This document shows, piece after piece, positions 6,702-35,259 of a DNA stretch of 35,794 nucleotides. Both the position numbers and the translations under genes were made by a program. Each line of letters starts with the position of its first letter. The first letter of the stretch is position 1. The stretch is from positions 1 through 35,794 of the forward strand of contig DYGR01000031.1 in assembly GCA_020724545.1 (NCBI GenBank). Reading direction: 5' to 3'. A model generated the notes under the pieces. That model searched no databases, had not been told where the DNA came from, and saw nothing but the letters and a program-made list of their open reading frames with translations. Origin of the DNA: Candidatus Methanoperedens nitratireducens (GTDB taxonomy: Archaea > Halobacteriota > Methanosarcinia > Methanosarcinales > Methanoperedenaceae).

Positions 6702-9284
6702 ATGCAGTGGATGTTCGATGAACTGGATAAACTGATCACGGTCTTGATCGCTAAAAACTCAAACGGAGAAAAAAAAGGTATAAAATTCAGAATAAGAACC
6801 AAGATACTAGTAGCCTTCTTGGTACTTATTCTCATATCTCTTATCTCGTTCGGATATATTGCACTCAGCCACGTAAACAGGGTTGGGGACTATGCCATGG
6901 AAAGCAGCGCCTCTTTGGGTAACAGCTCGATAAAAGACGCAACACACGCTCTTGAAGCTCTCGGTGAAAAAATGATCGAGCAAAAGGCTAAGGACGTTGC
7001 CAAGCAGGTGGAAGTTTACATTAAGTTACACCCCAATATGACAATCTCTGATCTACAAAACGATCTGAAGTTTCAAAAAATTTCGGTTCAACCCGTTGGC
7101 GAGACGGGATATACTGCTCTCATGGATATCGATACAGGATATTTTTATTTCCATCCCCAAAAAAGGTTGATTAATACAGATTCTCACGTGTTTGAAGAAA
7201 AGCTTCCATTAGTATGGAAAATATTGAATCAAACAATTGGTAAATTTAAAGACTCTAGTGGATATTATGAATGGGAAGAGGCTGATGGGAGCATTAGACA
7301 AAAGTACATGACGTTGACAGTTGTAAATGGAACAACTGCAGATAAAAAGAATCTATTCATCGCAGCGACAACCTATATCGACGAGTTCTCAGGACCTGCC
7401 GAAGATATAAGAAAAGAAATCACAGCTAAAACTTTGCTCGCCAATGAACACATCAATAAAGAAATAAATGATATTCAGAATACCTTCATTGGGATTCTTT
7501 TTGTCATGATTTTTCTAATCTCTGGAATTTCCTTTCTAATCTCAAGAATGATCACAAACCCCATTGATACCCTTACAAAAGGTGCCAGGGCCGTAGGAAG
7601 GGGGGAGCTTGATTATGTGGTAGACGTAAAAACCGGTGATGAACTCGAAGAACTTGCAAAATCGTTTAATAAAATGACATTCGATTTAAAAAAACAGACC
7701 GAGTTACGTATAGCTAAAGAAGCTGCAGAAGAGGCAAACCGAACTAAGAGCCAGTTCCTCGCTAACATGAGCCATGAACTTCGAACTCCTCTAAATGCCA
7801 TCATAGGTTACAGCGAGATGCTGCAGGAGGATGCCAAAGACATGGGACAGGAGGAGTTCATACCTGATCTCCAGAGAATTCACTCAGCGGGCAAGCACCT
7901 GCTTGCGCTTATAAACGATGTTCTTGATATCTCGAAGATAGAAGCGGGTAAAATGGATTTGTTCCTTGAGGATTTTGATGTATCTACTATGATACAGGAA
8001 GTGGCGTCCACAATCAAACCTCTGGCAGAGAAGAACGCCAATACGCTGTTAGTAAATAATAAAAATGATACTGGCACAATGCACGCAGACCTGACAAGAG
8101 TCAGGCAGGTGCTGTTCAACCTTCTCTCGAACTCATGCAAGTTCACAGAGAAGGGCACCGTCACGCTGGATGTGGCACGTGAGTTTTCGGACGGCAGAGA
8201 TTGGATCATCTTCAGGGTAAGCGATACAGGCATAGGCATGACTCCTGAGCAGATGGGTAAGCTGTTCCAGGCCTTCTCACAGGCAGACGCCTCAACTACG
8301 CGCAAGTACGGCGGCACCGGGCTGGGACTGACTCTCAGCCGAAAATTCTGCCAGATGATGGGTGGAGACATCACGGTAGAGAGTGAATACGGCAAGGGTT
8401 CCATATTTACAGTCCGTGTCCCTGCAGTGGTTGTTAAACAGAAGGTTGATGAAACTGCGAAGTCTCCCAGGGGGACTGCTATCACGACTGCGCCTGTTAC
8501 GATATCGCCTGAGCCAAATACTGTTCTTGTGATTGACGACGATCCCGCGGTGCACGACCTGATAAAGCGCTTCCTTACAAAGGAGGGGTTCAATGTGGCA
8601 ACAGCATCAAGCGGAGAGGAAGGTCTCAGACTAGCTCGTGAACTGCGTCCTGTAGCTATCACCCTGGATGTAATGATGCCTCACATGGATGGCTGGGTTA
8701 TCCTTAAAGAATTGAAGGCAGATCCTGATCTTGCTGATATTCCGGTTATAATGGCATCGATGCTGGATGATAAGAACATGGGCTTTACCCTGGGGGCATC
8801 GGACTACCTGCTCAAACCCATCGACCACCAACTTGTCTCTGTCCTGAAAAAACACCTGAGTAAACAATCAACCCAATCTATTCTTGTGGTGGAGGATGAC
8901 CCCTCCTCTCGTGAGATGATAGTTCGCATGCTGAGAAAAGAGAATCTGTCTGTTACTGAAGCCGAGAATGGTCGTGTAGCGCTTGATCGTGTTGCCCAGA
9001 ACATGCCTGATTTGATTCTGCTTGATCTCATGATGCCTGAGATGGATGGGTTTGAGTTCATCATGCATCTCAGGAAGAACGAAGCATGGCGGTCGATTCC
9101 CATCGTGGTTGTAACAGCAAAGGAACTCACAGAGGAAGACCGCCTGCGATTGAACGGTCATGTTAAAAAGATTCTTCAGAAAGGAGCATTAAACCGTGAT
9201 GATCTGCTGCGTCAGATCTATGATCTGGTTGAGGGCTATACCCAGCATGGGAACAAGGAAAAAGGTGGTATAAAAAATGTCTAA
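6702..9284 (+). CDS. Hybrid sensor histidine kinase with two receiver domains
   Basis: The 860-residue protein has a transmembrane helix at about 35-56 and an extracytoplasmic Cache-like sensor at about 57-260 ([10 protein letters not shown] and GYFYFHPQ are typical). TM2 lies at about 261-281, followed by HAMP (282-333), HisKA with phospho-acceptor H358 in [11 protein letters not shown], and a HATPase domain with N473/N477, DTGIGM and GGTGLGL boxes. Two receivers follow: REC1 (about 607-718, acceptor D656) and REC2 (about 726-838, acceptor D775). AAGGAG at 6692-6697 supports ATG 6702. It overlaps the next gene by 8 bp and heads a three-gene signalling operon. The Cache fold suggests a small-molecule ligand; which one cannot be seen. 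Confidence 0.92.
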
Positions 9285-9642
9285 AATCTTATTAGTTGAA
9301 GATAACGAAATGAATCGTGATATGCTGCAGCGGCGTCTTGAGCGTAAGGGCTACCAGGTCGTCACTGCGGTTGATGGCAGGCAGGGTATCTCTATGGCTC
9401 AAACAGGATCGCCTGATCTGATATTGATGGACCTGAGCCTTCCTGAGATTGACGGCTGGGAGGCAACACGCCGACTTAAAGCCGATGCATTGACAAGGAG
9501 CATTCCAGTTATCGCTCTGACTGCACATGCAATGTCCGGGGATAAGGAAAAAGCGCTTGAAGCAGGCAGCGATGACTATGACACCAAGCCTATTGAATTG
9601 CCCCGGTTGCTTGGAAAGATAGAGGCATTATTGAAGAAGTAA
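9277..9642 (+). CDS. Single-domain response regulator (DivK-like)
   Basis: The 121-residue protein is one receiver domain: acidic pair E8-D9 in [13 protein letters not shown], acceptor D52 in [17 protein letters not shown], the Thr/Ala switch in VIALTAHAM and the KP pair near the end (DTKPIELP). There is no output domain, so it probably relays phosphate or regulates a partner by binding. It overlaps the kinase gene by 8 bp and is 2 bp from the next gene. The likely phosphate donors are the upstream kinase or the HisKA modules downstream. Confidence 0.92.
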
Positions 9643-9644
9643 AC

Positions 9645-11093
9645 ATGATGACCGACAAGGACCTATCCAATATAAGACATGACCTGCGCACACCAATAAA
9701 CCATATCCTGGGCTACAGCGAAATGCTGCAGGAGGATGCTGAAGATATGGGGCAGGCGGATTTCATACCCGATCTTCAGAATATCCACTCTTCTGGTAAG
9801 CACCTGCTTTTGCTTATCAACGATATGCTCGATACTTCGAATATCGATGCTGGTAAGATGAATATGGAGCAGGTGCGCCATGGGCTTGATGCGCCTTTGA
9901 ACCAGCTCATCGGATGCATTGAGATATTATTAAAAAAAGCCAAAGATAAAGGGCAGGCGGATTTCATACCCGATCTTGAGAAGATCCAGGCTGCAACCAA
10001 TCACTTTATCACGCTTGCTGATAGTTATCTTCTGAAAGCAGAAACTGATAAGATAGACAGGGCAGCAGATACCTCCAGGACACCTGTCCAGAGCACAGTG
10101 CCTACTGCCTTGCCTTCTGTTGAGGAGAAAGTCCCAAGCTCTCAGCATGCCTCTTTACTTGTCGTGGACGATAATGAGGCAAATCGTGACATGCTGTCCC
10201 GCCGCCTTGTCAAAGTTGGGTATGCAGCAATGGTCGCTGATGATGGGAAGCAAGCGATCGAGTTAATCAAGAAAAATGCCTTTGACGTGGTTCTTCTTGA
10301 TATTATGATGCCGGGTATAGACGGCATTCAGGTACTCAAGATCCTGCGTGAAACATATTCTATGACAGAGCTTCCGATCATTATGGTAACAGCGAAGGAT
10401 CAGAGCGAAGGGATAGTCGATGCCCTGAACCTGGGAGCAAACGATTATGTAACAAAACCTATCGACCTTCCAGTGACTTTAGCCCGGATCCGGACGCAGT
10501 TGTCCCTCAAGAGGGCAGAAGAGAAGATCAAAAAATATGCAAAAGAACTTGAAGAAAAACTGAAGCTTCTGGAGGATAAAGGAATCAGCAGATACGATTC
10601 TCTAATAAAAAGAAAGAATAGCTACATCATAAAAGAGAAGCGCTATGAAAAGAGCCTGGCGATATATTCTAATCTTACAAAATTCGGCATTGCCGGTCTT
10701 TGCATTACGATCTCCCATCCTGATGTACTCAGAGCGACCTACGACCTTAGCGAATGCAAAGGCAGATTCCTCTGGCTCTCTACATCTGCCGGTGAGGGAG
10801 ACGCAGTATCACCTACTAACCTTGTAGGCATCCATGGAAAAGTTATTGAACTTATAAAAAACAATAAGAACTCTGTTGTTCTTTTCTTCGGGCTGGAGAA
10901 CATAATAACTCTAAATGGATTTGAAAGGAGCCTGGGTTTTCTGAGCTCTTTTATCGACAGCATTATCATCAATGATTCGAGACTGATCATCTCTATCGAC
11001 CCGGCAGCCCTGAATCCAAGGGAGCTAAGCCTGATTGAGAAATCTATGATTGAAATAAAGGATGATGATTTAATCCGCCTTGGGTTAAACTAA
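9645..11093 (+). CDS. HisKA-HisKA-REC-DUF835 signalling protein without ATPase
   Basis: The 482-residue protein starts with a HisKA-type four-helix segment (H12 in RHDLRTPINHILGYSEML, about 1-70). A second, degenerate copy (about 72-125) has H79 in VRHGLDAPLNQLIG and shares GQADFIPDL with the first. A receiver follows at about 169-287 (acceptor D219 in VVLLDIMMPGIDG), then a lysine- and glutamate-rich coiled coil at about 288-340. The C-terminal DUF835 domain (about 345-470) has GLCITISHPD, WLSTSAGEG, NSVVLFFGLENIITLNGFER and RLIISIDPAALNPREL. No HATPase domain exists, so the histidines must be phosphorylated in trans or serve as docking or phosphotransfer sites. The first HisKA is closely similar to that of the kinase at 6702. 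The stop overlaps the convergent gene by 4 bp. Confidence 0.88.
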   Translation: MMTDKDLSNIRHDLRTPINHILGYSEMLQEDAEDMGQADFIPDLQNIHSSGKHLLLLINDMLDTSNIDAGKMNMEQVRHGLDAPLNQLIGCIEILLKKAKDKGQADFIPDLEKIQAATNHFITLADSYLLKAETDKIDRAADTSRTPVQSTVPTALPSVEEKVPSSQHASLLVVDDNEANRDMLSRRLVKVGYAAMVADDGKQAIELIKKNAFDVVLLDIMMPGIDGIQVLKILRETYSMTELPIIMVTAKDQSEGIVDALNLGANDYVTKPIDLPVTLARIRTQLSLKRAEEKIKKYAKELEEKLKLLEDKGISRYDSLIKRKNSYIIKEKRYEKSLAIYSNLTKFGIAGLCITISHPDVLRATYDLSECKGRFLWLSTSAGEGDAVSPTNLVGIHGKVIELIKNNKNSVVLFFGLENIITLNGFERSLGFLSSFIDSIIINDSRLIISIDPAALNPRELSLIEKSMIEIKDDDLIRLGLN

Positions 11094-29803: not shown

Positions 29804-31303
29804 ATGAATATCTTTCCAAGAGATTTTACTCATACTTTAACTGGTTTTGGTGGTGACCCGAACATGAATAAGGAACAGCATAGGGCTTCTATAAAAAAAG
29901 CCCCGGTAGTCCTGATACATGGAAACGCTGCGCATGTAGCTCATCCGATGTTTGGTTGGGATACCATGAAACGTTTTCTAAAGGAGGAAGGGTATCAGGA
30001 TAGTGAGATCTGGGCGATGGATTATTTAGGTGAAAATAATTTTCGTCCAGATATGCCCACACCTGTTAGAAACCATATAGATGATCTAAGAAAGTTTATT
30101 GATGATGTTATAGACTATTTAAATGTTGAAAGAATAGATATTATCTGCCATTCTCTTGGTGGTATGATGACCTGTGCCTATATGAGAGGTTATAGGTCAG
30201 ATGGTACATTCGATAATGCGAACCACAGGCTTGACAATATCGGGACTGCCGTATTTCTTGCTACTGCCAATTTTGGTTTGGGTATGAATTCGGTTGGAGA
30301 ATTTCTGACTGGTGGTAGTTTTGAAGTGAATTCTCATATATTCAATGGGGTTAAAGATGATACTCCCAGAGGAACAGACGATCCAAAGCAGATGGTTATT
30401 CCTGAGGAGGCAAAAACGTGTCAGCGCGAAAGTGAAGAAAGTCAAGGTGCAAATGATCCAAAGCAGATGATCGCGGAGATGGCTGCCCTTGAGGAGAGCT
30501 GGAAAGTTAAAACCGATTTGGATGTAGGTACATTACCTCCTCAAAATGTGTATGTCGCTATTACAGCGACAGGTGACTTTGTTGATAAACAAAATAAAGA
30601 TACTGGCAGGTTGGAGGGTGCTCATTGTAATTTAAGATTTAATTTAGGTCCAAATATAATGGGACACTCACAAATCCTTAAGCAAAGAGGGGTTTTTGAT
30701 GCTTTTAAAGAGTGTTTAAATAAGCATCCGCCTGGTATTCCAGTTTCTGCATTCCAGAGAATTGCTGTTAGTCCTGTTTCTATAAGGGTCAGTGAGAGTA
30801 CCCCTATAAAGGTTAGCGAGATAGGTGAGATTTCCCCTAAGCCTTTGTCAGTTACTGTAAATGTTACTCCGACAGATATGGTTGTCTCTTATGCTACAAA
30901 GCGTGTAACTAAAGAATATCAGGCAGGTTATATTATAGAAAATGTTGCAGAGACCTGTAGTGGTAAATTAAGAAACGGGGAAGGACTTACTCTATCTAAA
31001 GATGGGATATGGGATGTTACTTTTTCAGGTCCTGGTGTGAGCGATATTAAGAGAATGTATGGTGTTTCTGTAATTAAGCCTACAGTAGAAATAGAGACTC
31101 CTGATAGACCTAAATTTACTGATTCTCTTGAAGTTAAAGCTAAAGCTTCGAGTGGTAATCTATATTTTTCTTTTGATGGCATGCATTTTAATGAGGGAAA
31201 TAAAGTAAAGATCTCCGAAACTAACACTGTATATTTTATTGCTATTGATAAAGGAAATGCTTCCGAAGTTGTTTATCGTTTTTATGAAAAGGAGGCAGTG
31301 TGA
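29804..31303 (+). CDS. Lipase-like alpha/beta hydrolase with beta-sandwich tail
   Basis: The product is 499 residues from ATG 29804, preferred because GGGAGTGAT at 29789-29797 is a good ribosome binding site; a GTG at 29762 would add 14 residues. The hydrolase domain has the oxyanion strand VVLIHGNAAHVAHP and the nucleophile Ser in ICHSLGGMM (S117). A likely Asp lies in ITATGDFVD and a likely His in IMGHSQILK. This is the layout of Lip/PGAP1-like lipases. A Thr/Val-rich beta region follows (PISIRVSESTPIKVSEIGE-like). The final segment (about 440-495) resembles the chitobiase C-terminal or bacterial Ig domain (SGNLYFSFDGMHFNEGNKVKI). No signal peptide is seen. It is followed 58 bp later by the I9-type gene. 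Confidence 0.75.
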   Translation: MNIFPRDFTHTLTGFGGDPNMNKEQHRASIKKAPVVLIHGNAAHVAHPMFGWDTMKRFLKEEGYQDSEIWAMDYLGENNFRPDMPTPVRNHIDDLRKFIDDVIDYLNVERIDIICHSLGGMMTCAYMRGYRSDGTFDNANHRLDNIGTAVFLATANFGLGMNSVGEFLTGGSFEVNSHIFNGVKDDTPRGTDDPKQMVIPEEAKTCQRESEESQGANDPKQMIAEMAALEESWKVKTDLDVGTLPPQNVYVAITATGDFVDKQNKDTGRLEGAHCNLRFNLGPNIMGHSQILKQRGVFDAFKECLNKHPPGIPVSAFQRIAVSPVSIRVSESTPIKVSEIGEISPKPLSVTVNVTPTDMVVSYATKRVTKEYQAGYIIENVAETCSGKLRNGEGLTLSKDGIWDVTFSGPGVSDIKRMYGVSVIKPTVEIETPDRPKFTDSLEVKAKASSGNLYFSFDGMHFNEGNKVKISETNTVYFIAIDKGNASEVVYRFYEKEAV

Positions 31304-31361
31304 ACAATAAATTGACAAAAAATTTAAACTTATGGAGACCCTATTAAACAATGGAGTGAAG

Positions 31362-31622
31362 ATGTCAAAAATTACTGAAGAACTCTTAAAGAAGATAGAA
31401 GAAGCAGAGAAAATAGATCCAAACCAGAAAATACCTGTCATAGTTACATTTGATCCTGATTTAGATATTTCAACCCTTGAGAAAATGGGCTTACATATTG
31501 AGAAAAAATTCCCTGAGATAAATGCTGTTTCAGGAACGGTTACAGCAAGTGCTGCAAAGAGACTCTCTGAGCTTAAGGGTGTAAAGATCATAGAATACGA
31601 TTCCAGGGTCTACGCCCTTTAA
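31362..31622 (+). CDS. Stand-alone I9 (subtilisin propeptide-like) protein
   Basis: The 86-residue protein starts at ATG 31362, with GGAGTGA 3-9 bp upstream. It has a helical N-terminus (ITEELLKKIEEAEKID) and then the inhibitor-I9/propeptide fold: KIPVIVTFDPD, STLEKMGLHIEKKFPEINAV, SGTVTASAAKRLSELKGVKIIEYDSRVY. There is no protease domain and no signal peptide. Stand-alone I9 proteins in fungi and yeast inhibit or fold subtilisin-type proteases. Here a subtilase gene lies 45 bp away on the opposite strand, an obvious candidate target. Its C-terminus, EYDSRVYAL, resembles the EPDGKCYAL at the end of that subtilase's own prodomain. Confidence 0.8.
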   Translation: MSKITEELLKKIEEAEKIDPNQKIPVIVTFDPDLDISTLEKMGLHIEKKFPEINAVSGTVTASAAKRLSELKGVKIIEYDSRVYAL

Positions 31623-31667
31623 TTTCACTCAAAAATGGCCTTAGACAAAAAAGAAAAAAGTATAAGA

Positions 31668-32867
31668 CTATGGTAGTCCTGGAACCGCGGGAGGCACTTC
31701 GAGCCTGAATGCTGCTTCGTCTGCATTCACCCTGCCGAAACCATACTCTTCATCACGGCCTGGTCTGCCCAGGTTTTCCGCTGTAGAGGCAAGCAGCCTT
31801 CTGATAGCGACGTTTTGAGCCACACCAGAGGGTGCCCATCTATGTGAAGATAACGCAAGTGCAGCAGCACCAGCCACATGAGGACATGCCATGCTTGTTC
31901 CACTCAATGTGCCATATCTATTTCCCGGTAGAGTTGATAGAACATCTACGCCCGGGGCGCACAGCTCAACCTCGGGACCTCTACTGCTGAACCGTGCTAT
32001 CACGTTGGCACTATCTATGGCAGATACGGCTATGACGGATTCATATTTTGCAGGGAAGTTTACTGGTCCTCTGTCGTTTCCGGCCGCCGCAACCAGTATT
32101 AATCCTCTCCTCCATGCCAGATTGCACATTCTCTCTAATGCTGTAGTAGGTGCCGAAGAAGCACCAAGGCTCATATTAAGTACATGCATGCCATTCCTGA
32201 TACACCAGTCTATACCCGCGATTATCCAGCTAAAATTTCCTGAACCATCACTGCCGAGTACCTTTACAGCATACAGGTATGCAGATGGTGCAACCCCTAT
32301 TACACCAAATCCATTCATTGCTGCCCCGATGGTGCCTGCCACATGGGTTCCATGTCCGTTAAAATCCTTTGGACCTGTTTCTGCTGGTACAAAGCTTATC
32401 CCGCCTCTGTAGTTTGGACTTAAGTCCGTATGTGTAAAATCTATGCCCGTGTCACAGACCGCGACCTTTATGCCCTTACCTTTAGTTATATCCCAGGCTT
32501 GAGGTGCCTTTATTCTATCTATACCCCATGGAATAGTCTCAACCTCAGGCGATGGCTGACCTTCTACTACAGGCAGTGCATAACATTTTCCATCTGGTTC
32601 AACAGCTTCCACATCTGGGTCTTTTTTTAGAGCTGCAACATCATCATCCGTGAGTTGAGCTGAGATTATCGGTGCCTCATACTCATTTATATCGAATGCT
32701 ATATTCTCCACAGGTACATAAGCAGGCACTCTTAGAGCCGAAGCAGCCTCTATAACATTCACAGGTGATTTGATCGCACTCCTAAATATTTCCACCTTAT
32801 CGCTTTCCTTATCCGTCCTTTCGTTCTTAGCCTTAAAAGTGACTATATATGAAACTCTCTCTACCAA
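31668..32867 (-). CDS. Subtilisin-like serine protease without signal peptide
   Basis: The 399-residue S8 protease has a prodomain at about 1-98 (VSYIVTFKAKNERT ... LTDDDVAALKKDPDVEAVEPDG). The catalytic domain has D139 in KVAVCDTGIDFTHTDL, H172 in DFNGHGTHVAGT, oxyanion N264 in VAAAGNDRG and S325 in LSGTSMACPHVAG. All active-site residues are present. There is no signal sequence before the prodomain, so it is either cytoplasmic or exported by another route. The start is TTG 32867 behind GGGGGG; an AT-rich TATA-like AGTATAAATAG lies about 50 bp upstream. It converges on the I9-type inhibitor gene. Confidence 0.93.
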   Translation of the reverse strand: MVERVSYIVTFKAKNERTDKESDKVEIFRSAIKSPVNVIEAASALRVPAYVPVENIAFDINEYEAPIISAQLTDDDVAALKKDPDVEAVEPDGKCYALPVVEGQPSPEVETIPWGIDRIKAPQAWDITKGKGIKVAVCDTGIDFTHTDLSPNYRGGISFVPAETGPKDFNGHGTHVAGTIGAAMNGFGVIGVAPSAYLYAVKVLGSDGSGNFSWIIAGIDWCIRNGMHVLNMSLGASSAPTTALERMCNLAWRRGLILVAAAGNDRGPVNFPAKYESVIAVSAIDSANVIARFSSRGPEVELCAPGVDVLSTLPGNRYGTLSGTSMACPHVAGAAALALSSHRWAPSGVAQNVAIRRLLASTAENLGRPGRDEEYGFGRVNADEAAFRLEVPPAVPGLP

Positions 32868-33062
32868 TTTAATAACCCCCCAAATAGTAATTTCATTACA
32901 GATTTATTCTATTTATACTTTATGGTTTACATTTCTGCAAGTACAATCAGTATATGAAAGATTACGTGCGCCTGTCTCCCTGGGAGCATAATAGAGGAGT
33001 GCATATAAACTCAGGCATCCCGAACCGTGCATTCTGCATTACTGCAATGGAGATCGGCGGGT

Positions 33063-33240
33063 ATGCATGGGAGAAGGCTGGTAGAATCTGGTATGCGTAC
33101 GGCGGTTACACTGGATACGGATACGCTTCCTCCTGAAGAGGCGCGTAAGCTGCAGGAGATGGTAGATGCAGCTAATTTTTTCAACCCCTGCAACGCTGCG
33201 ACCCCTGCTTCAATCACTGTTGGCGTATGCAAGGAAGTAA
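33063..33240 (+). pseudogene. Decayed emfourin-like protease inhibitor gene
   Basis: The frame from ATG 33063 (open from 33027) encodes AVTLDTDTLPPEEARKLQEM, then VDAANFF. This matches the N-terminal half of emfourin (M4in), an inhibitor of protealysin-type metalloproteases. A run of six T follows at 33176-33181. Removing one T gives STPATLRPLLQSLLAYARK and a stop at 33238, which matches the emfourin C-terminus (the ALRPLL ... helix). The central ITVE beta-strands normally between the halves are missing. So this looks like an inhibitor gene that has lost its middle and acquired a frameshift. The original frame runs on without conserved features to 33356. Family recognition is from memory of these motifs. 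Confidence 0.55.
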
Positions 33241-33575
33241 GGTATTCAGAAGAGCCTATCCTTCGTGGCAAGTATCAAACAGGGCTAGGAAGCCCAAATT
33301 CAGATGTCAAAGGCGATGCATGGATATTCAATTTATGGAAATCCATGCTAAAATGACAGACTTACGCAGTTCGTCGGCCTGCCCAGTAGGTGTATCGTGA
33401 CCACGAATGCTTAAGATAGATATATATATGAGTATGCGCTTATGCTTTACAGGCGACAAACGCGTAATCATTGGTTGGTTCACGCTCTGCATGCTGGCTG
33501 TTGCTGGCCACCTATTTGCAGTCAACTACGTTCATGCTTGATTCGCAGTCTACAACGAGAGGGAAGATTAGCATC

Positions 33576-33860
33576 ATGTGGGGTGACACTATTTCGGTCA
33601 AAGACTTGGCAAAGCTTACAGAAACTCTGACCGATATCATACAACGGATCAGGTCACTAGAGGAGCTTGAGGGTTGGTTAAGATCACAACATTGTGTCAA
33701 GTCTGTCAGAACGGCAGATTACCTTATCAAGACCATGCCCCCGCGCAAGGAATTATTGGTTGCCTTCAAGATGGATGATGGCTCGACTATTACGAAGGTC
33801 ATCGATATCATACTTTATCCAAATCATACCCTTGGTCTGGCTGGAGTGCATGAACCATAG
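33576..33860 (+). CDS. Small hypothetical protein
   Basis: I do not recognise this 94-residue protein. From ATG 33576 it has a helical N-terminus (SVKDLAKLTETLTDIIQRI, SLEELEGWLRSQHCV). A beta-rich second half follows (KELLVAFKMDDGSTITKVIDIILYPNHTLGLAGVHEP). It has no signal peptide, membrane segment or catalytic motif. AGAGGGAAGA 15 bp upstream is a loose ribosome binding site. The open frame extends to 33471, but that part looks non-coding. It lies between the inhibitor remnant and the trypsin-like protease gene, so an inhibitor or chaperone role is possible but unsupported. Confidence 0.45.
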   Translation: MWGDTISVKDLAKLTETLTDIIQRIRSLEELEGWLRSQHCVKSVRTADYLIKTMPPRKELLVAFKMDDGSTITKVIDIILYPNHTLGLAGVHEP

Positions 33861-33990
33861 TCATACAGCGAGACAATCTGTGAAGGATTGATTTTGTAAA
33901 AACTGTTAGCAGATGGACTCAATTTGAGCGACACGTTTATATACCAAAAAGAATACTATATTAATAAGTGGGACTTAAAGCGGGATTTAA

Positions 33991-35259
33991 ATGTCTGGTG
34001 AAAAAATTGATTTAATTAAAAAATTGAATAGTTTTGAAGCGCATGAACTATTGCAGGAGTTAAGGTCTCGTCAGAAGAAAGCAAAATCCAGCGAATCTAT
34101 TCAAGATGTTGATTCAGCTACGATAGCTAAAGTATTGAAAGGTAAACAAAAGGTAATATATGAGGTAGATAATAGGCAAGATATATTTCTAGTTAGCAAT
34201 CCAAAAATTCTTGCTAATGCCGATTGTGTGGTAAGTTTATTTCGCGCTAGAGATGTTATAGATAATGGTGATGACACATCTACACTTACAACACAAAATT
34301 TTGGTACACAAAATAACTTATGCAATACTGAACGTTTTAGAGATCAACTAACTGGAGCCTTTTGTTCTGGTTTTCTGGTAGCTCCAGACATTATAGCTAC
34401 TGCAGGACATTGTGTCAATTCAAGTAACGTAACTAATATACGATTCGTCTTTGGGTTTAGAATGCTAGATGCAACAACACCACAGACTGTTATCGATAAC
34501 AATGAAATCTACCAAGGTATAAATGTAATAGATCGAAGAGAAACAGCCGGTGGTGCTGACTGGGCACTTGTCAGATTAGATAGAGCAGTAACAAATCATA
34601 CGATTGCTGAGCTTAGAAGAACTGGAATAATACAGGATAATCAAGCTGTTCATGTAATCGGGCATCCATCTGGACTTCCGATTAAATTTGCAGATGGATC
34701 GAAAGTTCGTGATAACACACCCAATGAATTTTTTGTTGCGAATTTAGATACTTATGGAGGCAATTCAGGTTCGCCAGTTTTCAATAGTGATACCCTTCAG
34801 GTTGAAGGAATCTTAGTAAGAGGAGAAGCAGATTTTGTCAGAGCTAACGGTTGCAACATTTCTCTTGTATGTCCAAGTACAGGCTGTAGGGGTGAAGACT
34901 GTACAAGAACCACTGAATTTTCAACTTTAGTGCCAGAAGGTGGGCCAGAAGTTATTTTGTTAAATACGACAATTTCATCCACGCTACCTGCTAAAGACAG
35001 CATTAAAGAATATGTTATTAAAGGAATTGAAAGTGGTAAAAAACTCATTATAAATTTAGTGGGGTCAGAAGAAGACCAGGATTTTGACTTATATGTTAAA
35101 TTCGGGTCACCTGCAAAGGTTGATGAATGGGATTACCGTGGTTATACTTCTACCTCCAATGAAGAAATAGTAATTGACCCAACCAAACAAGGAGATTACT
35201 ATATCACAGTGCACTCTTTTGCTGGTAAAGGTAATTTTAATCTTAAAGCCCAGGATTAA
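33991..35259 (+). CDS. Trypsin-fold serine protease with PPC domain
   Basis: The 422-residue protein has a charged helical N-terminal segment at about 1-50 (MSGEKIDLIKKLNSFEAHEL), which looks like a small interaction domain rather than a signal peptide. The S1 domain follows (about 75-315) with H140 in IIATAGHCVNS, D190 in GGADWALVRLD and S259 in TYGGNSGSPVF. A cysteine-rich insert reads NGCNISLVCPSTGCRGEDC. The C-terminal PPC beta-sandwich (about 336-422) has SGKKLIINLVGSEEDQDFDLY and GDYYITVHSFAGKGNFNL. PPC domains usually occur on secreted peptidases, so absence of an export signal is odd. TTTATATA lies about 55 bp before ATG 33991. Codon use is strongly A/T-biased compared with the housekeeping genes. 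Confidence 0.85.
   Translation: MSGEKIDLIKKLNSFEAHELLQELRSRQKKAKSSESIQDVDSATIAKVLKGKQKVIYEVDNRQDIFLVSNPKILANADCVVSLFRARDVIDNGDDTSTLTTQNFGTQNNLCNTERFRDQLTGAFCSGFLVAPDIIATAGHCVNSSNVTNIRFVFGFRMLDATTPQTVIDNNEIYQGINVIDRRETAGGADWALVRLDRAVTNHTIAELRRTGIIQDNQAVHVIGHPSGLPIKFADGSKVRDNTPNEFFVANLDTYGGNSGSPVFNSDTLQVEGILVRGEADFVRANGCNISLVCPSTGCRGEDCTRTTEFSTLVPEGGPEVILLNTTISSTLPAKDSIKEYVIKGIESGKKLIINLVGSEEDQDFDLYVKFGSPAKVDEWDYRGYTSTSNEEIVIDPTKQGDYYITVHSFAGKGNFNLKAQD

Follow-up and report, generated by a model that had tools for sequence, protein, structure and literature searches.

A signal-less trypsin-like protease of Candidatus Methanoperedens nitratireducens and its small neighbour, a candidate inhibitor with a Bowman-Birk-like loop

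In Serratia, the intracellular protease protealysin and its inhibitor emfourin are reported to be encoded by adjoining genes of one operon, and a strain deleted for emfourin is described as showing an earlier drop in culture density (PMC9505478). The Bacillus intracellular subtilisin Isp1 also has a reported protein inhibitor, IPI (PMC3901451), and antiviral nuclease-trypsin pairs are reported in which the nuclease is activated by the protease (PMC12799240). Bowman-Birk inhibitors are described as carrying the loop C-T-P1-S-X-P-P-X-C, their frog analogues usually with Lys at P1 (PMC7760496). Here we describe a gene pair from the archaeon Candidatus Methanoperedens nitratireducens, which encodes a trypsin-like protease without a signal peptide and a 94-residue protein that may be its inhibitor. 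The pair lies in a stretch of 35,794 nucleotides (GCA_020724545.1, contig DYGR01000031.1), hereafter the window, which is contig C73 of a 2.9 Mb genome labelled G000.

We consider it probable, judging from the sequences, that the protease is an intracellular trypsin zymogen and that its neighbour is a cognate inhibitor of a new kind. The helical residues 1-54 would keep the protease latent, and cleavage after Lys54 would free a V-I-Y terminus, leading to activation; the partner, presenting a K-[S/T]-x-P-P loop on a β-hairpin and placing its Lys, the P1 residue, in an S1 pocket lined by Asp253, would block premature activity by the standard (Bowman-Birk-like) mechanism. Such a pair would be like protealysin-emfourin, as reported (PMC9505478), in that an intracellular protease has its inhibitor gene next door, but protealysin is an M4 metalloprotease with an unrelated inhibitor, and the window keeps only a relict of that system. 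Isp1 and IPI, as far as they are reported (PMC3901451), likewise combine an intracellular serine protease with a protein inhibitor; unlike the proposed pair, however, the protease is a subtilisin and IPI has an Ig-like fold.

The association of the two genes extends well beyond the window. Relatives of the protease were collected from one genome per species (84,980 species scanned), and the best 80 of 167 were used, L138 and L147 being left out because they hold no open reading frame (ORF). Their N-termini are of two kinds, either a classical signal peptide or a segment of ~50 residues of the ELxxELRxR type followed by K-x-I-Y-G, and from these N-termini we divided the loci into secreted and signal-less. 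Of the 28 signal-less loci, eight gave strong matches to an iterated profile of the small partner, which had been seeded with four of these eight; none of the 53 secreted loci did. The trypsin was found in 3 of 40 genomes (G000, G018 and G022), each time with the partner gene just upstream. When the search was started from the partner, four of 392 genomes of the window's phylum matched, namely the window's and three new ones; the new genomes form one genus of the same order as the window's archaeon, and all three copies lie beside a signal-less trypsin that is 62-63% identical to the window's trypsin. A corresponding search of one bacterial genus gave matches in 2 of 265 genomes, both beside a trypsin, although neither is likely to be new, because one is locus L087 again and the other has the match figures of L037. 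Across the 23 genomes of signal-less loci there were six strong matches, all of them known adjacent copies, with no second strong copy elsewhere in those genomes; a seventh match (E 0.004) stood without a trypsin.

In the 12 aligned pairs, most of which were gathered via the trypsin, the genes lie 85-461 bp apart in about seven lineages, with the partner upstream, downstream or divergent. The link is therefore not one of fixed operon layout. Partner distances rise with protease distances (r 0.94 for the 12 pairs; r 0.73, permutation p 0.004, for seven representatives). At two loci only (L081 11802-12173 and L096 3-302, the hosts being an actinobacterium and Nitrosocosmicus), a second small family with the motif GGCxxHxF stands beside the signal-less trypsin; the L096 copy matches NigD_C, and the family is a possible alternative partner.

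The protease itself has a trypsin fold (Pfam Trypsin_2, 1.3e-16; Foldseek, 5.7e-12), and its catalytic triad is invariant in 16 of 16 aligned proteases. Asp253 is retained in the same 16, and among relatives whose motif is readable an Asp occupies this position in 23 of the 24 that are signal-less and in all 52 that are secreted. We take it to stand in the place of chymotrypsin Asp189 and to confer Lys/Arg specificity; with this Asp six residues ahead of the catalytic Ser, where trypsin also has one, the enzyme should cut after Lys or Arg and should accept Lys52 of the partner as P1. Among the Foldseek neighbours of the model were staphylococcal V8/Esp and Vibrio VesB. These are secreted enzymes, whereas the window protease is signal-less, its Asp253 suggesting Lys/Arg specificity.

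In a tree built from 29 signal-less rows and 12 of the 53 secreted ones (41 in all), the signal-less clade is separated from the secreted one with 98/91 support. The signal-less clade mixes archaea with Chloroflexota, Actinomycetota, Pseudomonadota, Cyanobacteriota and Planctomycetota, a mixture that suggests transfer. Structures were predicted for 16 trypsins. In the window's model, helices at residues 3-13, 17-28 and 42-53 are followed by a low-confidence link (predicted local distance difference test, pLDDT, <50 at 54-59), an arrangement that would be expected of a self-processed zymogen. Where the motif is readable, a Lys or Arg precedes x-I-Y-G in all 22 signal-less rows, as compared with 38 of 52 secreted rows; the window protease reads K-V-I-Y-E at the proposed processing site. 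Two relatives counted as secreted, L098 and L142, carry the helix motif together with a signal peptide, and we read the motif for this reason as a prodomain rather than an address tag.

Only three columns, K52, P55 and P56, are invariant in all 12 aligned partners; position 53 is Ser or Thr in every one (Thr in five), so that the partners share K-[S/T]-x-P-P, which reads K-S-N-P-P-Q in three of the archaeal partners and in that of Noviherbaspirillum. Folds were predicted for seven of nine partner sequences, and the AlphaFold model of the partner (pLDDT 84) has two helices followed by four strands, with the K/P/P residues placed where the first strand turns into the second. Its Lys-Ser/Thr-x-Pro-Pro on a hairpin, with Lys in the P1 place, is like the loops described for plant Bowman-Birk inhibitors and frog-skin peptides (PMC7760496). 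The partner differs from them in having no cysteine-bridged loop (one Cys in the window's copy, and no conserved pair), a larger predicted fold, a prokaryotic host and a gene beside its proposed target. The resemblance is one of convergence, not of membership.

The small protein had no match among Pfam, NCBIfam, PADLOC or PHROG models, its fold search gave nothing above noise, which is no proof of a new fold, and a PDB sequence search with the partner profile returned seven rows, none of them an inhibitor, while the loop region of another partner copy found no PDB match. A literature query joining Bowman-Birk with the plant loop string found nothing, no title among the matches listed for Bowman-Birk concerned a prokaryotic inhibitor, and Methanosarcina with trypsin-like proteases brought up only unrelated matches. 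The motif K[ST].PP occurs 16 times in 379,114 ORF residues of these loci, partners included, and is thus rare per protein. Nevertheless, the motif also appears nine times in unselected frames near secreted trypsins, presumably by chance, and so proves nothing by itself where it is not conserved.

The adjacency of the two genes is equally evidence that the partner is a substrate or activator, whose activity would be switched by a cut at Lys52-Ser/Thr53, as happens in the immune pairs of protease and proenzyme known from bacteria. Protease-activated nuclease pairs are reported to exist (PMC12799240), and PADLOC scores the protease against the trypsin-bearing defence proteins RT-Protease_XI (6.1e-9) and LmuA (3.6e-5). 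As in those pairs, the window's trypsin-like protease would work with a neighbouring gene; there, however, the neighbour is reported to be an MBL-fold (metallo-β-lactamase) pro-nuclease and the protease to be fused to a defence enzyme (PMC12799240). The window's upstream neighbour has no Pfam match, its protease carries only a PPC domain, and beside the trypsin we recognised neither a nuclease nor a fused defence enzyme. Pfam likewise recognised no domain in six of seven relatives of the partner, the seventh giving a sub-cut-off match to Sec7, and Pro-Pro at P3'-P4' is the Bowman-Birk pattern. We judge a substrate or activator role to be unlikely, and prefer that of inhibitor.

Another rival reading concerns the work of the protease. 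It could serve to mature a redox enzyme, or a peptide product of nearby radical-SAM clusters: radical-SAM proteins occur in 6 of 28 signal-less loci (two of them in Methanoperedens) as compared with 1 of 53 secreted loci, a weakly LodA-like family in 6 of 28 as compared with 0 of 53, and a ferritin-like/LodA_C family in 5 of 28 as compared with 0 of 53. Nevertheless, we recognised none of these genes next to the window's trypsin or, by eye, in the three archaeal loci newly found through the partner, and we give this explanation little chance.

Some of these neighbourhoods were recorded in their own right. The bacterial clusters L036, L037, L080 and L089-L091 combine signal-less trypsins with weakly LodA-like, ferritin-like/LodA_C and radical-SAM proteins, and L036 and L037 also encode a C25 peptidase and an 80-residue hypothetical protein. 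Downstream of the trypsin on contig 14 of G022 (L039 10570-18330) are genes for a vWA protein and an M10/astacin-like protease. Two radical-SAM genes, the first of the B12 type, were recognised there by eye, together with a gene for a precursor-like protein of 72 residues that is rich in Cys.

The trypsin and its partner lie at one end of a group of genes (Table 1) that an earlier note, made from the window's sequence alone, had described as an island of hydrolases and inhibitor-type domains without signal peptides. All six of the items that it named were confirmed. So was the absence of signal peptides as judged by a simple rule, the best 12-residue N-terminal hydropathy, which was 0.17-1.36 for the island genes with in-frame upstream codons included; a window gene that has a hydrophobic leader gave 2.41, and an S8 paralogue in the same genome gave 2.64. 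The plus-strand genes had been called AT-rich, which holds for the lipase, I9 and trypsin genes (GC 0.36-0.39; GC at third codon positions 0.22-0.32) and thus for three of five intact genes, but not for the small protein (GC 0.453), which is also on the plus strand; the S8 gene (GC 0.479) is not AT-rich either. Eighteen of 20 other window genes have a GC of 0.41-0.49, and two ordinary ones, dprA and a toprim gene, are as AT-rich as the three (0.355-0.366). Plasmid and viral origins were considered and rejected: plasmids gave one weak lipase match and seven trypsin records, all bacterial, and viral contigs gave one trypsin relative (43% over the catalytic part) and no lipase relative.

Table 1. 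Features of the trypsin-partner pair and of the genes beside it, in window coordinates
Feature	Position	Strand	Remarks
Lipase_2-type alpha/beta hydrolase with C-terminal extension, signal-less	29762 (GTG) or 29804 (ATG)-31303	+	
Stand-alone I9/Tk-subtilisin-propeptide-like protein, 86 residues	31362-31622	+	Alternative start 31332 (96 residues)
S8 subtilase, signal-less, bearing an I9 propeptide of its own at the N-terminus	31668-32867	-	Peptidase_S8 5.8e-66; I9 1.8e-6
Relict of M4 metalloprotease-emfourin pair	32910-33241	+	Four collinear pieces with internal deletions
Emfourin fragment, inside ORF	33027-33356	+	Covers 12-49 of the 91 Pfam profile positions; scores 28.9 bits (cut-off 27)
Small partner protein, 94 residues, no family	33576-33860	+	Listed ORF starts upstream at 33471
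Proposed reactive loop of partner, codons 52-56 (K-T-M-P-P)	33729-33743	+	Between predicted strands 41-51 and 57-65
Trypsin_2 protease with C-terminal PPC domain, signal-less	33991-35259	+	Triad H140, D190, S259
Proposed helical prodomain of protease, residues 1-54, with ELxxELRxR-type motif	33991-34152	+	Ends at Lys before V-I-Y (candidate self-processing site)
Asp253 of protease, six residues before catalytic Ser	34747-34749	+	Kept in 16/16

The lipase, I9 and S8 genes recur together only in a close relative, G015, where the lipase protein is 92% and the I9-like protein 88% identical, and the DNA 94% identical over the lipase stretch and 91% over the I9/S8 stretch. There the lipase, a protealysin-like M4 peptidase, emfourin and the I9 protein follow one another on one strand and the S8 gene is convergent, so that an intact M4-emfourin pair sits between lipase and I9; the window has no pair at that place. 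The pieces at 32910-33241 are instead 87-95% identical to a second M4-emfourin pair on another G015 contig (L053), and because only four collinear pieces of that pair are present, the window's emfourin is a relict. The true order at both G015 places is uncertain, because runs of 100 N, probably scaffold gaps, with the same flanking repeat adjoin both (L023 11315-11414, beside the S8 gene, and L053 8646-8745, beside the second pair). A CRISPR-like repeat array with cas1/cas2-like genes, recognised by eye, lies next to the G015 block (L023, about 8750-10260). Lipase, I9 and S8 form a block separate from the trypsin pair; the M4-emfourin neighbours of this block survive in G015 but only as a relict in the window.

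Emfourin was found in six of the 40 genomes, the window's included, and an intact M4 gene followed by emfourin, which the window does not have, in G015, G005, G007 and G009. The pair stands behind an N-terminal lipase fragment in G005, and directly behind a signal-less S8 gene in G007 and G009. On contig 47 of G003 (L054 5673-9664), emfourin lies beside a tyrosinase with a C-terminal PPC/DVUA0089-type domain, and close by are a B12 radical-SAM protein and a protein of 113 residues that, by eye, resembles a multi-core peptide in its three VADPAP-type repeats. Full lipase genes occur in only two of the 40 genomes, one of them the window's, with one further fragment; across the window's phylum, matches were found in 3 of 392 genomes, namely the window's and two partial matches at 28-32%. 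Five regions chosen among the plasmid matches were viewed, and in three both M4 and emfourin are annotated.

The stand-alone I9-like protein scores below the Pfam cut-offs (I9, 18.2 bits, cut-off 21.2; Tk-SP_N-pro, 22.1, cut-off 26.5) and matches the Tk-subtilisin propeptide with E 0.09. We rejected the idea that stand-alone I9 proteins are general partners of S8 proteases: 24 of 392 genomes match (27 rows), only two rows outside the window lie in frames of <130 residues, and of these one (G405) is near a contig end and the other (G383) has no S8 relative in the 13 kb read. The G383 protein (G383:C11:55540-55809; L203 6532-6834), of 100 residues, comes from the same order as the window's archaeon.

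The earlier note had proposed that lipase, S8, I9, M4/emfourin and trypsin act as a single intracellular self-damage or conflict module. Lipase, I9 and S8 do recur in G015 around the M4-emfourin pair, S8, M4 and emfourin stand in a row in G007 and G009, in one of the five plasmid regions, from Streptomyces, M4-emfourin has a lipase gene and an S8 gene for neighbours, and S8 relatives occur in 7 of 31 signal-less-trypsin loci as compared with 5 of 53 secreted loci. Lipase, I9, M4 and emfourin relatives, however, occur in none of those 31 loci (counted to at most 10 kb on each side, many contigs being shorter, and the window not counted). G015 has no trypsin, trypsin and lipase coexist only in the window's genome among the 40, and the M4-emfourin pair is decayed in the window. 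A module of this kind is very unlikely. The pairing of proteases with inhibitors, as far as it concerns M4 with emfourin in relatives and trypsin with the small protein across domains, has proved real. The small protein that the note had left without a name is the best inhibitor candidate, whereas the window's own emfourin is a relict, and with the trypsin it forms a unit separate from lipase, I9 and S8. The stretch is best explained as a patchwork of hydrolases that were acquired separately and stay in the cytoplasm, with no single conserved system.

Alternatively, the hydrolases could be the cargo of an extracellular contractile injection system (eCIS), with the small proteins as immunity factors. 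Sheath relatives occur in 20 of the 40 genomes; within the genus, 17 of 24 genomes have one, including the window's, all six with emfourin and all three with the trypsin, and in G015 one M4-emfourin pair lies about 7 kb from the sheath gene. Co-presence is nevertheless weak (8/8 as compared with 17/24, p about 0.03 by hand arithmetic with genome size not controlled). The window's genes are on another contig than the sheath, the sheath regions of seven genomes besides G015 hold no lipase, I9, S8, trypsin, M4 or emfourin relative, and conservation of the G015 block in the window's genome ends at a break that precedes the M4 gene. We regard cargo as a very remote prospect. Tail-sheath genes with a Pvc16-like cap and an AAA ATPase (names by eye) are present in Methanoperedens at L053 (G015 contig 7) 215-5203 and at G000:C86:63182-64666.

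Protease-inhibitor pairs are a known idea; what the present pair would add is a signal-less trypsin with a loop-type inhibitor common to archaea and several bacterial phyla. If the partner is indeed an inhibitor, it would found a new family of inhibitors, and the Bowman-Birk loop would have arisen by convergence once more. A bolder proposal, which we put forward only tentatively and consider doubtful, is that both prokaryotic domains independently invented a cysteine-free inhibitor of the Bowman-Birk type and passed it on together with the zymogen of a cytoplasmic trypsin, the two genes making up a portable switch. Loss or degradation of the inhibitor would then kill or remodel the cell, or a rival. 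With two small genes, inhibition is directly testable in vitro, which offers a handle on why microbes keep intracellular trypsins, and the pair, if it works as proposed, could explain how a microbe holds a trypsin safely inside its own cell.

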